From Dendrophyllia cribrosa (lineage: Eukaryota > Cnidaria > Anthozoa > Scleractinia > Dendrophylliidae): a stretch of DNA of 64,000 nucleotides. This document shows positions 1,780 to 53,300 of this stretch, in pieces. The notes beneath the pieces were generated by a model. The model saw only the letters and a program-made list of their open reading frames with translations, was not told the origin of the DNA and searched no databases. Where the stretch lies: positions 7,230,997 through 7,294,996 of the forward strand of contig JAJLRJ010000009.1 in NCBI GenBank assembly GCA_024195265.1. Direction: 5' to 3'. Numbering within the stretch: the first letter of the stretch is position 1; every line of letters starts with the position of its first letter. Position numbers and translations under genes: made by a program.

Positions 1780-3760
1780 CTGCCCTGTCATAAACTCTCA
1801 ATTTCGCTCTCGTCCATCATTCACGGCGTCGTCAACACCGCCGACGCCGCAGGATCATTCGCTCTCGTCAACTCTCGTGCGCTCTTAATCATTAAATCTT
1901 CCTCAAAAGAGCAACATTCGTGCGTTATCACAAACTTTCATGCGCGTTAATCAACTTTTCTCTCTTTTAAACCTTCAATTCATGCGAGTGCTCTCAAATC
2001 AGCACTTAATTGCGTTATCGTAAACCCTAGTAAGCTCTCGTCAACTCTCATGAAGCAGCATTCGCTCTTGTTACCTCTTATTCTTACTTATTATTACTTT
2101 ACAAGTGCTCCTATTAACAACATCCATTCTTAGTCGTCAACTCTCGAATAAGGTCGAAAACACTCATTCAGCAGCTATATTCGTGCGCTCTCAGAACTTC
2201 CGATGAACGTCCATCAACTGTCGTGCGCTCTAATGAAATCTCGTGCGCTTTTATCCATCCGTCTTTATCGCTATTATTAACCCTAGTAAGCTGTCGTCAA
2301 CATCCAGGGAACATTCGTTCGTTTCTTTCCTCATCATGCGCTTTCTTAAACACTTTTAAGCTGTCTTTGAATCTCAGGCGTTTTCGTCGGCATTAGTTCG
2401 CTCTCATCATTTATCAATTGCTTTAAACCTCGCACGATGATGTGGACAATCAAGCTTTCTTTTCGCTGTCTCTCATTTCTACACTTGAGTTTTACGCAGT
2501 CGTTAGCTATCATGCACTGTCATTAATTGTTATCCCTTCTCCGTAATTGTCTTATTCTATCGTCAACTCTCATCCCCTCTCGTGAGTTTTCTTATGATTT
2601 TCAGTGTCGACTCTTACGGGCTCTCGGCAATTTTCTTATGCTTTTGTCATTTTTATGCGATTTCGTCAACATTTGTACGCCGTCCTCCACTTTAAGACTT
2701 GCGTCAACCTTCGTTTGCTGTTGTCGACCATAATTCACACTCGTCATTTGTTATTCGCTCTCGTCAACTCTCATGCACATTTGGACACTGTCGTCAACTA
2801 TCATACGCTCTCGTCTCGCATTCGCTCTCATCAACTTTCGGACACTGTGGTCAACTATCATGCGCTCTCGTTCTCATTCGTTCTCATCAACCTTCGGACA
2901 CTGTCGTTAACTATCGTGCGTTTTCGTCATCTCTCATTCCCTCTCGTCAATCTTTGTACACTGTCGTCAACTGTAATGCGCTTTCACCATCTCTCATTCG
3001 TTGTCATCAATCTTCGGACACTGTTGTCAACTAACATGCGCTCTCGTAATTTCTCATTCGTTCTCGTCAACCCGCTTACTATCCGCTATGCGCTCTGGTC
3101 AACCCATTACTCTTTCGTCAACCGTCGTGCATTCTAGATCTAGTCATCTCAGTGTACGCTCTCGTCGACTATTTTCCACTCTCGTCAACCCCAGTGCGCT
3201 TTCATCAAGTATTATATGCACGGCACCAACCCTCTCTTTATCTCTCACTACACGGTTGTCTCTTCAAGTATTGTAAGTTGTCGTAATTTCTAATGCCTTT
3301 ACAAACGATCTCATCAATAATATGTGCTCTCTTCAACCGTAGTCACTCACAGTGTCTTCATCAACTCTCGTACCCTCTCACCAATCCTTGTGCGCTGTCT
3401 TCAATTCACATGCACATGGTTTTTCCTGCTCTCACCTGTGCTCTCGTTGACGCTCACACGCTCATAAAAACTCCTATGTGCTCTTGCAACTTCGTACGTC
3501 GACTCGACTCTCGGCGGCTTTTGTCAGTCAGTTCGTACGATTTCATCAGTAATCATGCGCTCCCATCATTTCAAATATGCCCACTCGTCAACCTGCGTAC
3601 GCTCTCATCAACTTCGCGCTCTCGTCGGCCCTCGTAGGCTCTTAAGTAAACTCTCATGCCCTGCCGTCTACCTTGGTACGCTGTCGTAGACTTTCTAGCC
3701 TTCTCGTCAAACTTTATTGATTTCGTCAGCCTATGTTCATTGACCATAAATATCGCATCA
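1780..3760. repeat. Degenerate satellite of TCGTCAACTCTCATGCGCTC-like units
   Basis: About 2 kb is made of a diverged tandem array whose core reads roughly TCGTCAACTCTCGTGCGCTC. Between about 2770 and 3070 a higher-order unit is visible: GGACACTG (once GTACACTG) recurs at 2783, 2840, 2896, 2956 and 3016, a spacing of 56-60 bp. Open frames across it are low-complexity (Ser/Leu/Arg/His-rich) products of the repeat and are not called as genes. Confidence 0.75.
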
Positions 3761-12700: not shown

Positions 12701-13365
12701 TTTATTATCTTGAAATAGGAAAAAATTCGCCTGAAGGAATGAAAGCAAAGAAGTATTATCTAAACAGACAAAATAACATTTAAAAAAGTCAAAATCTCAC
12801 AAGAATTAGAAGAATGGCAATTTTGATTTCTTAACCGCCTGTCATGAATCAAATTTGATTTAACATCCTTGCAATCCTACACTTTACCTCCAAACTAATG
12901 CGTCTGTTTTGCTCTTTAGAATCTTACGGAAAGTTTGCTACTTCGACGAGACAGTGTTCTTTTAAAATAAACCATTCATCGAAAGTAAGGTTCCCATTTC
13001 TACAAACCTTTTTCACATCTGCTGACTTTAACATTACTGGGTTCCATATTTTCGCAATACCATGCATCATCGCTTTGTTTACATGTAAGTCCCCTATTAC
13101 ACATAGCGTCTTGTTTGTCCAGTGGCTCTCTTCTGCACGCCTCTCCAATATCCTTAAGGCACACATCACAGCAACCACATTTATCTTTCACCACAGCGGT
13201 TTTGCAGTTTTTCACCACAGGGCATGCGTATTTGGGGTTGGGGCAGTCTCCTGGACTCTTACACCAACACGCGGAGCAGTCTGGGATTGGATTTGGGGTC
13301 TGAGCAGTGATGTATGATGATAGATACACCAGAAGTAAAGTGGTTGATGAGATGACGTTTGTCAT
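6718..13365 (-). CDS. Secreted IGFBP-like + multi-VWC protein (CRIM1/kielin-chordin-like)
   Basis: Exons, minus strand: 13365-13008, 12459-12244, 10973-10904, 10246-10179, 8514-8311, 8227-8158, 7600-7536, and a tentative last exon 6842-6718. All junctions are GT-AG with matching phases (1,1,2,1,1,2,1). Exon 1 starts at an ATG with a signal peptide (residues about 1-21), then a cysteine-rich IGFBP-like module with KCGCCDVC. Exons 2 and 5 each encode a full ten-cysteine VWC domain ending in GRCCRFC or GRCCLVC. Exon pairs 3+4 and 6+7 encode VWC N-terminal halves (C-x-Y/F-x-G, then a CxC block split by the intron). The IGFBP-plus-VWC order is that of CRIM1, which binds BMPs at the cell surface; no transmembrane segment or antistasin repeat is seen here. 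With the tentative last exon (41 aa tail, one Cys) the product is 391 aa. If exon 5 is not spliced at 8311 it stops at 8288, giving a shorter alternative end. Confidence 0.75.
7400..7477. repeat. (TTA)n and (AATG)n microsatellites
   Basis: A (TTA)n run at 7400-7424 is followed by a 3'-end-like segment with ATAAAATG and an (AATG)n run at 7453-7477. The arrangement resembles the tail of a non-LTR retroelement. It lies in the intron before the tentative last exon of the VWC gene. Confidence 0.6.
8288..8310 (-). other. Alternative 3' end of VWC exon 5
   Basis: Reading through the donor at 8311|8310 (GCTAGAG|GTTGGT) adds seven codons and a TAA stop at 8290-8288. The 83-bp intron 8310-8228 is the shortest in the gene. 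Splicing it joins two VWC parts in frame; retaining it gives a 266-aa protein (if exons 3 and 4 are also skipped) or a longer one ending here. Both forms are possible from sequence alone. Confidence 0.4.
8625..8910 (+). repeat. tRNA-derived SINE
   Basis: Box A-like GGGATGGTGCAGTATTGAG and box B GGTTCGATTCC, spaced as in a Pol III promoter, begin the unit near 8630. A conserved-looking body follows with CTCCGAGGGTTTTTCTCCGGG and TTCCTCCCTC, then GGGCCACCCTAATCAACC and an AT-rich tail. A fragment with the same tail (GGGCCACCCTGATTTATTTA) lies near 58665-58690. It sits between VWC exons 5 and 4, on the strand opposite to the gene. Confidence 0.65.
9262..9468. repeat. Inverted-repeat element
   Basis: The left arm TAGCCTGCGAACAG...TCTGGTTGGGGATAGGG is mirrored on the right by CCCTATCCCCAACCAGA...CTGTTCACATGCTA. 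The centre is CT/GA-rich. There is no coding capacity; the open frames through it are repeat artefacts. It lies in a VWC gene intron. Confidence 0.6.
9610..10015 (+). repeat. Interspersed repeat, family shared with 13934-14740
   Basis: Begins AAAGGGGCTATGCCATGAG and continues through TTTAGCCTAAACTTTTGAAG, TTTCCATCCTGCCCATCCGC and CACCAATATAGTAACTG, ending near GGGACATACCGAGCCCC. A second copy runs 13934-14740 but is interrupted by another element. The 34736-34760 segment carries the same end motif in reverse. Confidence 0.55.
10337..10600. repeat. Inverted-repeat insertion with 24-nt poly-C
   Basis: Starts GGCGGATCCAGG and ends CCTGGATCCGCC, and contains C(24) at 10365-10388. It interrupts a small local repeat of GCAGAAAAAGAAGCAGTGATCA seen on both flanks (10262-10320 and 10603-10625). 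It lies in the intron between VWC exons 3 and 4. Non-autonomous insertion. Confidence 0.6.
10660..10855. repeat. Interspersed repeat ending in GCTTGGAACAGGCTAC
   Basis: G/C-richer than its surroundings, with GCGCGCGAACGAGCGGGG at the left and a duplicated end unit CCCACTATCTGAACGCTTGGAACAGGCTAC at about 10797-10852. The same end occurs at 20860-20912 (CTCCCCACAATCTAAACGCC) and, reversed, at 20378-20395 and 26893-26925, so it is a dispersed family. Confidence 0.55.
11270..11830. repeat. AAGCGACCAC-type repeat copy
   Basis: Repeats of GTAAGCGACCAC(T/C)(T/C)TC with intervening unique-looking sequence. Related units are at 48864-49290 and 55170-55350. It ends GGGAGGTTCAACTA, the diverged terminal motif of the same family. 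It lies in the intron between VWC exons 2 and 3. Confidence 0.55.
11960..12115. repeat. Partial copy of the GAGCAGTTTTCA MITE
   Basis: Right half of the element that is complete at 39674-39932. It shares GGTTTTACTTCTGATTG, TTTTAGCCAATCACAAAGCG and the end CAATTGAAAACTGCTCTA. Confidence 0.6.

Positions 13366-28655: not shown

Positions 28656-28711
<56 letters not shown>
28656..28711. repeat. (ATA)n microsatellite
   Basis: About 18 perfect copies of the AAT/ATA triplet. Lies downstream of peptide gene exon 2, in the candidate intron. Confidence 0.9.
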
Positions 28712-28959
28712 TAAACAACAGTGTAAATAAAAGCTCGCATCACCGCGAAATGTTATTCAGTGAGGCCCTGTATTTTACGATGTTTTTGCATGTACCAATA
28801 CGAAACCCAAAGTGTAGAGTTTCTTTAATCGATGTCTCGATATCTAACCATGCATGCACTGAAAAAAGTCAGTTAAAACTACAAATTAAAATTACTCATG
28901 AGTTTACGCTGTATTTTTAAAAACTGATATGCATGGCGCAATATAAATCTGATGACTTA

Positions 28960-30138
28960 CTAGTTCCCGGGTGCTTCGGTAGGACAGCCAGGCAGTGCTG
29001 GGTCCTCTTGTCCACACCACCACCATCGCTTAAATCGTCCAGAACGTTTTATAGCTCGTTCATGACGTCGCTTTAAAATCACATCTGATAAACTGCAAAA
29101 AAGAAAAATAATGCATTCCAAGCTTTTTAAAAAACTGTATGTCTCTATTCTTGTTCGTTTTACGTTTCCGACGACCTTTTAGGATTTTATAGTGACAAGC
29201 TGATCTTTCACTGCTCTTGCCATAAGATGCCTTATCTTATGGTGGAAATTGGACGAACTTCAAATAATTGCGCACAGGGAAATACGGCGGTTTGGATGGA
29301 GCTGAAATCAATTCAGCAGTATAATTAAAAAAAAGATATTTTTTGACTGCAAATTTGGTACATACGTATTTGTAAGAAAGCTAAGGTAGGAATTCGAATA
29401 GCCTCGGTGCTTTTTCAACTGAAGGGCATTAAAGTTAATTTTACATGGGGCACGCAACGAATTATTTCGCCAAATAGCTGCTGATCGGCGTCCGCTCTCA
29501 GAATTTGGATTACAACTCGGATGAAAAGTTAAGGTTCTCGAACCGAAAATGTAAACTGTCGTTTTCGGACCCAATACTGAAACTACGCCTGACGTTCTGA
29601 AGGGGATGAAGATGTTGTTTTTGGTTCTAAGAAAGTCCGAGCTAAAGATTTCGCCGGGGAGGCAAACAGTTTCCTTAAAATTCTTGAAAATCCGGCATAC
29701 TTGAGCTAACTTTTACGGAGAAAAGGATTTTGTTCAGTTCGGCCGGTTCAATTTCCAGCTAAGGCTTCTGAACATATCGAAATTCAAATATCCCATAAAC
29801 GGCATTAAATTAACAAAAGAAACATAAGCATGACTTTCTAAAGCCTTTGGTGAGTGCCCCTAGACCCTGATTTTAACGTGCAAACTTTAAGCTAGTGAAA
29901 AGGTAGACCTCCGACCTTCCTGTAATCTCATTGACGGCAGTATTTTGTGCGATCAAAACTTTCAAATAGTTGTAAAAGGAATTTACAGTGTAAAATTTTC
30001 TCTCTACCTCAGTTTACTTTTAGCAATCTCATCTTTGATCTCAGCCAGCCACGCTTCTTCCAGTGGTTTTCCATCCGTCGTTCTCCACAGCACAGCTAAC
30101 ACGGCAACGAATGTAACAAATATTACAACTCCTTTCAT
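28960..30138 (-). CDS. Small secreted peptide precursor with dibasic sites and a Trp-rich two-Cys peptide
   Basis: Two coding exons, minus strand: 30138-30008 (ATG in an AAG-ATG-A context) and 29092-28960. The intron is GT-AG with phase 2 on both sides. The product is 87 aa: a signal peptide at residues 1 to about 22 (hydrophobic VVIFVTFVAVLAVLW), an acidic/amphipathic spacer to residue 50, then basic sites at 51-53 (KRR), 59-60 and 65-66 (KR). After the last site come WWWCGQEDPALPGC (67-80) and a short PTEAPGN tail. Cys70 and Cys80 could form one disulfide ring. The layout is that of a neuropeptide or secreted peptide prohormone cleaved by furin/PC-type enzymes. I recognise no family. The TAG stop lies on a GTAAGT donor: the splice TA|G to 28046 again makes TAG. 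A non-peptide role is possible. Confidence 0.65.
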
Positions 30139-30199: not shown

Positions 30200-31085
30200 G
30201 AAAATACAAGGTGTACTTCGCCTCTTTTATAATTGCAGCTAACGCATTTTTTAAATTTATTCTTTTGGAAGTGATGACGTTTTAGCGGCAATTAGAAACC
30301 TCAACAGGAATTATGCTGGGATGACACGACAAATCTATATTAGTCACACAATTCACTTGATCAACCAATATTTACTTCGATGTAGTTGTTGAAAAAGGGC
30401 AAGGTACAATAAAAAACCAAAATATATATACATTTGTTGACAAGGAATAAGTGTTGCAGCGTTGAGGCGTTGCTCAATAACTAAAAGCAATTTTTTTTTT
30501 GTGAAAAAATGAATCCAGCGAAGAAGGCGAAAATTTAGTTTTTAAAAAATTCAAGGGACCACACCGGCAACCGGATATACGTCGGGAGGAAAACAACATT
30601 CTGAAATCATGTCTGTATTTAATTTCGTAAAAGGAAGACTCTTGTAAGCTTTGTTGTGTCGCGATTTAACCTGACAAAAATCCTGTGTTGCAAAGTAAAG
30701 GAACATACTTCATTTTTAGGTTTTGATAAATGTCTAAGATCGCTAAATATCGATAAATAATACACAGGTGCACTAATACATTTTAAAATTAGTTGATGTT
30801 GTCGAAACAGGTGTTCGTTAACTTGTTTAATTTGTGTTCCTGAAATTTCTTCAGTCTCAAGCTGCACGTATGAAATTTTTAGCTAAACGCTTCGATTGTC
30901 AATCCTTAATTCTACCCAGCATGAAATGTGTTTTTTCCCTCCGTTAACTCTTGTTCTTTCAATCAGTCACGCGATTGATCGAAGGACTACCCTTTTGGTC
31001 CGAAAAAGCCTTCTGACTCTGTAATAAATCTTCCCGCAAAATGCAAGCTGTATATTATTTTTAAGACATTTGTATGACTAAGTAA
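30200..31085. other. Upstream of the peptide gene; no gene seen
   Basis: AT-rich with no coding pattern. It would contain the peptide gene promoter; a TTTATAAT tract at about 30224-30231 (read ATTATAAA on the minus strand) could be a TATA-like site some 90 bp before the ATG. Confidence 0.3.
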
Positions 31086-40175: not shown

Positions 40176-49794
<9,619 letters not shown>

Positions 49795-50391: not shown

Positions 50392-53300
50392 CTATCTCTT
50401 CTCAAAGTAGACATCCCTCAACGCACGGTCCCTCCAGGTACATGTTGAAGGGGGGCTCATTTTGAAAGGGATTCTGTGATGGGATCTGAAGTCCTTATCG
50501 TCGGCTGATACAAATTTACCGCACAGGGGACATTTTATCATCACCACTTTGCTAAGGAAGCTGCAGTTATCTACGCCTTCCAATCTACAAAACGCAATAC
50601 AAACAGCAGGATAAAAACATGGATGACTTTGTTTTCTGGCAGTCTTGTGCAGTAACGACAAATCATTCATTCAGAGTTTATAATACCGCTTAAATTCGAT
50701 CAGTCAGCATCCTCCTTCCAATAACCCCCCCCCCCCCCTCCCCCCTTACCCGAGTGTCACTTTGTTAATAAGTTCCCACGCCCCCCTTGAGTGTTGTTTA
50801 TAGCGCCCTTTATTCCAATAAAAAAGTATCACAAGATCAACCGATGTCATTTAGCTTCCTTTAAGTGTTCCTTTTGACGGGATCACAGAATCGGACGTTA
50901 AAGACACCAGAAAGCTATCTTATTAAATATTATATTCTGACAATGCGAATTATTGTTACCTGTTGTTCTGACTAACACGCCCACATATTAAATCAAAAAA
51001 GAAACAAGCACTCCTAGTAAGTAGTATTACTCCTAGTAGTAAGCGCTCCCACTCTAATAAGCACCCCTCCCTAGTAAGCACTCTTTCTCCAATAAGCACC
51101 CCTCCCTAGTGAGCGCTCCCTCTCCAATAAACGCTCTCCCTTGAGCTACCAAAATTAAATAGGCCACTTCGAAAAATACCATAATACTCTTTAAAGTGCA
51201 GGTTTGGGTGGTGATTGATGTAAGCCTGATCTTTCCAATTTCGTTTGTTTTCAGCACGAACTGCACGTGCTATGCTTCAACTTCTTGGCAATTGGTATTC
51301 GGTGCACATTTGTATGCGTACACACAATGCTACGTTCAAGCGTTCCTACGTGTACTCTGAATTCCATTGTGCCATTCTAACAAAGGAGACTTGAATAATT
51401 ACACCCCGGTGAGGCTGAGCCTGCACATAAAAGAGTATTATGATGTTTTTCGAAATGGGCTATAAGCCGCCCGGCGCTAAATCCAATCATAACGTAACTC
51501 TGTGAACTACCAGCCTCTCCTGCTCGGTTCCCATAAAGTGAATTCTCCGACACTCATGATCAGCTTTAGCTGTCCGCCTTTAATAGAGAGTTTAGGTACA
51601 GACAGGAGCCCATAATCCCGGAGCGCAACTTCCATACTGCGCTTGTGAAACGGCATTTTTACAAGTAGGTTTATTTTTAGATAAGCCTTTCCCGTGAATT
51701 GGTTTCGGAAAACCAATCACAAGCAATTGCATAATTAATAACATTCACATATTCACATAGCGACTGGAAATCAGACATTCAACACACAGGAATGTGAACA
51801 TGTGAATAGTTGTTAATTATGTAATTGCTTGTGATTGGCTTTCCGAAACCAATTCGCGGGAAAGGCTTATCTAAAAATAAACCTACTTGTAAAAACGCCG
51901 TTGCACGAATTTATGGTAGTTACACCCTCCGGGTAATGGGCTCCTGGTACAGACAAACAAGTGAAACTCGACTGGGAAGAGCCAACCACTGATGTTCGCC
52001 TTACTGGGTGTCTGCTTTTAAGGGATGGTTTCACGGTTCGGCGCATGTGCACAGATTAAAAATGCTTTATTCGCTTACTCACCAATTTTGTTGGTTAAAA
52101 AACCACTCACATTTACTTCAATAATCACATACTATATTTAGTCCAAACAAAGCGAAGGATGACCAAAATTCACAGAAAATTTCAACGGAATACACCGACA
52201 AAGTCAACACTGCATAAAACCAAATGAAGAATGATCCTCGCAGTTATGAACGCAATTTAAGCAATTGCGAAAAGAAGCCTGAAAAAAATTCAGGACTTCA
52301 ACGGGGTTCGAACCCGTGACCTCGCGATACCGGTGCGATGCTCTACCAACCTGAGCTATGAAGCCACTGACGTTGGGAGCAGGTCAATTGTAGGTTCATA
52401 TGTTCCCGTGAAAGGAGTGAATGTGAAATGATATATATGAAATAAATCATATATGAACTGCGGAAATGAAATCAAATGAAGAATGATCCTCGCAGTTATG
52501 AACGCAATTTAAGCAATTGCGAAAAGAAGCCTGAAAAAAATTCAGGACTTCAACGGGGTTCGAACCCGTGACCTCGCGATACCGGTACCGCGCGATACCG
52601 GTACCTCGCGATACCGGTACCTCGCGATACCGGTGCGATGAACCTTTGACCCGAAGGATTTATTCTACGCTCTGGTGGTTTTCATGGCGTACATGGGTAT
52701 GTATAATCATCTATTCAATCAACTGACTGACCACGACATTTTCACGGGCAAATTTCCTGCCAGAGTTAAAATTAAATGGGTTACGTCATAGCTTGCACAT
52801 GCGCCGAACCGTAAAACCCTCCCTTTATGAGAGTTGACTGTATGAGCATATCTCTCGGCCGAGTGTGATTAAGGCTTTGGGAAGGTTATTCCCCGTTCAC
52901 ACCGACTCTTAAACATGATTATTTTTTTTAGTTTAAAACAGGTTCAGAAAAATACCTCCTAACCTCCTGAAGTATTTGGAGGGGAATCTTTACTAAAAGA
53001 AACTAATTTATTGATATTTATTACCATTCCAGGTAGTTTTACTCTCGCTATACATTTAAAAACGTTCAAGATGGAGACTAAAAGCGAAGTTAAACTAAAC
53101 AACATTTTAACATGTTTAACTGTTGGTGTGAATGGGGTTTTAGTCTGTAACATAAGCACGCGAAAGAGAATCCCTGGGTAAAAAGCGACAGTCCACCCCT
53201 AGCTCCCTCAAAATTAGGCACTTCATTGTACCTCGACTCACCCGCTTGAAGTTAGCTGATGTTTTCGCGGGACGACAAATCTTTCCACCCTTTGAACTGT

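Follow-up and report, generated by a model that had tools for sequence, protein, structure and literature searches.

Urotensin II and the somatostatin-type hormones are C-terminal one-ring peptides that arise by basic cleavage from short precursors. Among the cnidarian two-cysteine peptides described in the literature searched, those nearest to the candidate are scyphozoan and cubozoan cyclic FRamides, with the forms CXSPMCWFRXamide and CXGQMCWFRamide (PMC6909153). Amidated cnidarian precursors have been sought by the presence of three or more processing sites with glycine for amidation, together with three or more similar copies of the peptide (PMC7523074). Cleavage at KR is documented in Nematostella by mass spectrometry (PMC11087051). 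A non-amidated cnidarian peptide is also active, as the LW-peptide induces contraction in Hydra; the same report describes its gene as being without a homologue elsewhere (PMC12440616).

The locus considered here lies on the minus strand of a stretch of 64,000 nucleotides from the stony coral Dendrophyllia cribrosa (C22:7230997-7294996), the whole of which is referred to as the window. Re-reading of the minus-strand sequence bore out the original prediction that two exons join in phase and encode 87 amino acids, MKGVVIFVTFVAVLAVLWRTTDGKPLEEAWLAEIKDEIAKSKLSLSDVILKRRHERAIKRSGRFKRWWWCGQEDPALPGCPTEAPGN. The frame starts with an ATG at 30138 and is closed within exon 2 by a TAG stop at 28962-28960. 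The features of the locus are given in Table 1. The possible poly(A) signal overlaps the stop codon of a possible third exon. Just downstream of the candidate gene, 28656-28711 consists of a pure run of the trinucleotide ATA (18.7 copies).

Table 1. Window positions of the candidate peptide gene, its parts and its flanking signals.
Feature	Position	Strand	Basis or remark
TATA-box-like TATAAAAG	30224..30231	-	93 bp upstream of ATG
Exon 1 coding part, residues 1-43 plus two bases of codon 44	30008..30138	-	signal-peptide-like N-terminus, acidic spacer
Putative signal peptide MKGVVIFVTFVAVLAVLWRTTDG	30070..30138	-	sequence; 10-residue hydropathy maximum 3.22
Putative intron, 915 bp	29093..30007	-	weak donor GAG/GTAGAG, very strong acceptor TTTTTTGCAG
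Exon 2 including stop codon	28960..29092	-	holds the basic linker and the C-terminal peptide
Furin-type R-X-K-R site RFKR (residues 63-66)	29026..29037	-	sequence
Predicted C-terminal peptide WWWCGQEDPALPGCPTEAPGN, residues 67-87	28963..29025	-	net charge -3, possible C70-C80 ring
GTAAGT donor overlapping stop codon	28955..28960	-	possible second intron
Possible third exon	28825..28858	-	AG at 28860-28859; adds YACMVRYRDID and stop
ATTAAA, possible poly(A) signal	28824..28829	-	~131 bp downstream of exon 2

The 87-residue chain runs from a hydrophobic leader (residues 1 to ~23) through an acidic spacer (24-50, net charge -2) and a basic linker (51-66, KRRHERAIKRSGRFKR, net +8) to the tail (67-87). 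The signal-peptide cleavage site was placed by the -3/-1 rule, which is assumed to apply here. The three basic sites that had been proposed are all present, as KRR at 51-53, KR at 59-60 and KR at 65-66, the last of these inside RFKR, which is taken to be a furin-type cleavage motif. The terminal peptide had to be corrected: the 14 residues originally given (WWWCGQEDPALPGC) are the front part of the 21-residue tail that follows the last basic site. The whole precursor holds two cysteines, C70 and C80. The ring between them, CGQEDPALPGC, is devoid of FR-G and counts 11 residues with both cysteines included (nine between), instead of the ten proposed earlier. For the tail in its oxidised form, the calculated monoisotopic mass is 2310.946, with [M+2H]2+ at 1156.480. 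None of the three basic sites is preceded by a glycine, so the candidate lacks the amidation signal that is usual in cnidarian neuropeptides.

The preferred reading, given a probability of roughly 45%, is that the locus is a genuine gene, present in one copy and restricted to its lineage, whose product is a small secreted peptide, an acidic one-ring messenger released by a cut after RFKR. On its sequence, the candidate is plausible as an orphan secreted-peptide gene; its splicing, secretion, cleavage, disulfide and receptor action are predictions. The signal peptide would take the chain into the secretory pathway, and a furin-like enzyme or a prohormone convertase would cut after RFKR. A C70-C80 bridge would form in the tail. 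The 21-residue acidic peptide thus released would have three tryptophans at its N-terminus and a single disulfide ring of 11 residues, and may act extracellularly, most likely as a receptor ligand. Non-amidated, single-copy precursors on short exons would evade long-ORF searches, and would also evade the repeat-plus-amidation script described for hexacoral neuropeptides (PMC7523074). One confirmed case would favour the re-scanning of such genomes; at present there is a single unconfirmed candidate.

Neither a homologue of the candidate (87-aa and 60-aa queries) nor the conserved KR-WWWC frame that had been expected in related species was found among 5.8 billion proteins. In this search, a protein becomes a candidate through three exact five-residue words shared with the query, and neither query had any. 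A control from the same window, the ORF at 13003-13365, retrieved 13 proteins from the same collection at 63-79% identity, none of them identical. As the relatives of this neighbouring gene reach 79% at best, the species itself seems to be absent from the collection, and the negative is weak: with three exact five-residue words needed, a fast-changing precursor of 87 amino acids could escape at that distance. The control ORF is a single-exon secreted frame on the minus strand with an IGFBP domain, and 12 of its 13 relatives list PF00219.

Pfam returned no family at E values up to 10 for the 87-aa and 98-aa models, under HMMER filters that remove most matches above ~0.1. The PDB search with the precursor yielded five DNA primase/helicase chains at E 0.15-0.83, aligned to query residues 6-68 or 9-68 and judged to be chance, and the tail alone gave no PDB match. 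The candidate's own genome (627 Mb, 22 contigs) was searched at E values up to 10 with only the best candidates scored, which gave three matches. Two are the exons of the candidate; the third, on contig C18 (E 0.94, 28% identity), was judged unrelated, and no similar precursor occurs at that locus. No second copy or paralogue was found in this genome, and the candidate region is non-repeated in the DNA examined. The four pattern-matching stretches from viral contigs include no relative. Among 130 pattern stretches from prokaryote genome contigs, one passed tblastn, in a Methanoregula MAG. It was rejected as chance because it is without WWW and overlaps, on the same strand but in a different frame, a 187-aa ORF that resembles a flavin reductase.

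A search for WWWCG in the open-licence literature of PubMed Central gave no peptide-family study by title. No such peptide is described in the open-licence article texts searched there. The original prediction of an unrecognised secreted precursor fares unevenly: it stands as the best reading of the anatomy, with no known family matched, and its step to a new family rests on absent matches, which the collections searched are unable to render decisive. That the candidate represents an orphan family of one-ring, triple-tryptophan peptides from an early-branching animal lineage, a messenger that is not amidated and has a receptor of its own, is put forward as a rather doubtful extension.

The window contains other genes. 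A multi-exon gene resembling the human ATP-dependent DNA helicase Q1 (RECQL1-like) extends from 40176 to about 48420 on the plus strand; its first long exon matches PDB 8yrs_A at E 7.4e-57, and of the five donors inferred in this gene, four have low scores. Between apparent helicase exons there is a ~68 bp tandem repeat (47404-47848) that is open over long stretches. A tRNA-Thr (anticodon GGT) was identified at 52293-52365 on the minus strand by ARAGORN and Rfam. In a separate stretch, L010, two open frames of 334 codons begin near 3278 and 8975 of that stretch on the plus strand, 5.7 kb apart; their first 90 residues are identical and GPCR-like by eye, and the pair is probably a recent tandem copy.

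The splice sites of the candidate were scored with generic animal weights and compared with RECQL1-like junctions set by eye from conserved helicase motifs. The exon-2 acceptor, ...TTTTTTGCAG/TTTATC, is exceptional and ranks in the top 0.1% of the 6970 AGs in the window. The exon-1 donor scores 0.64, which 6.3% of the 7271 GTs in the window equal or beat; this value is inside the spread of the five RECQL1-like donors (-0.92 to 8.71). The C-terminus of the candidate may extend further, since GTAAGT overlaps the stop codon and an acceptor follows 102 bp downstream. Joining the two would yield ...APGN-YACMVRYRDID*, a 98-aa variant with three cysteines.

A real gene with this third exon, whose product would end in ...CPTEAPGNYACMVRYRDID and whose three cysteines would allow pairing within a dimer or to a partner, is considered unlikely; the estimate overlaps those of the other readings, and the variant would suit either functional reading. 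The second donor (3.68) is above four of the five RECQL1-like donors, with 1.1% of GTs as good, and the third-exon acceptor (5.3) falls within the 1.85-7.35 of four RECQL1-like acceptors. An intron of ~158 bp inferred in the RECQL1-like gene also makes an intron of 102 bp plausible in scale. Nevertheless, the number of cysteines is odd, the extension of 11 residues is too short for testing, and the acceptor is unremarkable, being in the top 1.4% of AGs. A more serious rival, albeit with the odds against it, is that two short open stretches happen to flank a good acceptor in non-coding DNA and that there is no gene. Each open stretch of the model has only ~43 codons and the exon-1 donor is weak. 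Relatives were not found in the protein or viral-contig searches, and the single prokaryote-contig match was itself attributed to chance. The TATA-like word, the acceptor, the hydrophobic leader and the codon use, on the other hand, all agree with a gene. There are 28 occurrences of the word TATAAAAG in 567,982 strand-bases, the candidate's own copy included. Of 4000 random open pieces, 95.6% have a lower codon score than the frame, whose score is at least equal to that of 74% of 97 coding pieces, on a small model of 20 pieces and 5071 codons. This model draws on 15 of 47 long ORFs chosen by eye (32 omitted), some of them probably derived from mobile elements, on the IGFBP-domain ORF and on four of five helicase stretches, the fifth being left out because it had no stop-free frame as cut.

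The likelihood of the layout arising by chance was gauged with a lax test that combines a hydrophobic N-terminus, at least three basic sites, a tail with at least two cysteines and a PWM-passing splice pair. Of 1500 simulated 64-kb windows (order-3 Markov), 50 passed it (1 of 60 in a first run), a rate that predicts many chance cases across a genome of 627 Mb. However, no lax match occurred in 22 other stretches of the same genome, about 220 kb (219,991 bases, of which 12,838 are N). The lax scan of the window itself gave two start codons, with exon 2 common to both. A strict version passed none of the 1500 Markov windows, with cut-offs chosen post hoc to lie close to the leader and acceptor scores of the candidate. 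The candidate thus beats chance moderately, and some chance layouts are still expected at genome scale; as the layout features were picked after the candidate had been seen, they lend only moderate support to a gene. The tryptophan run is scarce in the DNA examined: three copies of TGGTGGTGG were counted in 567,982 strand-bases, where base composition predicts 0.9, and all three are within the window, one in the candidate and one in a RECQL1-like exon. Of 3185 open stretches with at least 40 amino acids, 3 contain WWW. An origin of WWW as a TGG microsatellite was considered and set aside, TGGTGGTGG being uncommon; three successive TGG codons may still come from slippage.

If the gene is real, its product might have a function other than messaging. 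Venom precursors comprise a signal peptide, a propeptide, a basic cut and a Cys-bearing mature part, and the similar order in the candidate would suit a venom-type peptide made by stinging cells or gland cells. This is very improbable: a paralogue was not found in the own genome, there is no Pfam match and the best PDB match is at E 0.15. The two-exon model allows one disulfide only, which favours the messenger, while the two short folds described in the review consulted have two (PMC6627431). Somewhat less remote, yet still quite improbable, is an antimicrobial or mucus defence peptide, in which the acidic spacer would mask the basic tryptophan-containing segment KRRHERAIKRSGRFKRWWWC... The contrast between a spacer of net -2 and a linker of net +8 recalls the AMP precursors of Hydra, which are described as mostly charge-bipartite and taxonomically restricted, and the HyCWR peptides of Hydra are cysteine/tryptophan-rich with a positively charged C-terminal part (PMC10945409). 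The tail of the candidate is acidic (net -3), however, and cuts at all three basic sites would reduce the linker to pieces of only five and four residues. In addition, HyCWR has six cysteines against two here, and Hydra AMPs typically have several paralogues (PMC10945409) where none was found for the candidate. The acidic tail and this lack of a paralogue are the grounds on which the messenger is preferred to defence.

Comparison with known systems places the proposed messenger beside several groups of secreted peptides. Urotensin II and the somatostatin-type hormones, compared by layout, have a C-terminal one-ring peptide of the kind predicted here; no match to them appeared in the protein (5.8 billion) or PDB searches. 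HyCWR of Hydra, compared by description only, is secreted, as is predicted for the candidate, and likewise tryptophan-rich and strongly biased in charge, and differs in its six cysteines and in a positive C-terminal part described as lacking a conventional cleavage site, whereas the candidate has two cysteines, ends in an acidic tail and carries RFKR (PMC10945409). The SCRiPs of corals have a signal peptide and, in nearly every member, a convertase site, both of which are predicted for the candidate, and they share an anionic character and taxonomic restriction with it (PMC2652719). They form a group of several members with eight cysteines at fixed spacing, Cx6-7Cx4-6CPx3-6Cx4-6Cx5-6CCC, a pattern absent from the candidate, which has two cysteines (three in the 98-aa variant) and no paralogue found (PMC2652719).

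The Antho-RWamide preprohormones of corals and anemones resemble the candidate in their one peptide copy and tryptophan-containing product (PMC7523074). Their peptide is placed right after the signal sequence, starts with pyroglutamate and ends in RWamide, whereas that of the candidate is C-terminal, uncapped and unamidated (PMC7523074). With three basic sites, none with a glycine, and one peptide copy, the candidate departs from the pattern by which amidated precursors were sought. This lowers the claim to the amidated class and does not close it, since other genes in that study came by TBLASTN and single-copy precursors were accepted (PMC7523074). The cyclic FRamides have a six-residue ring, several similar peptides and amidation, where the candidate has an 11-residue ring, one copy and no amidation signal, and their consensus CXXXMCWFRamide does not occur in it (PMC6909153). 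The features that the candidate is predicted to share with them are a two-cysteine ring in a peptide cut from a secreted precursor and a tryptophan beside a ring cysteine (PMC6909153).
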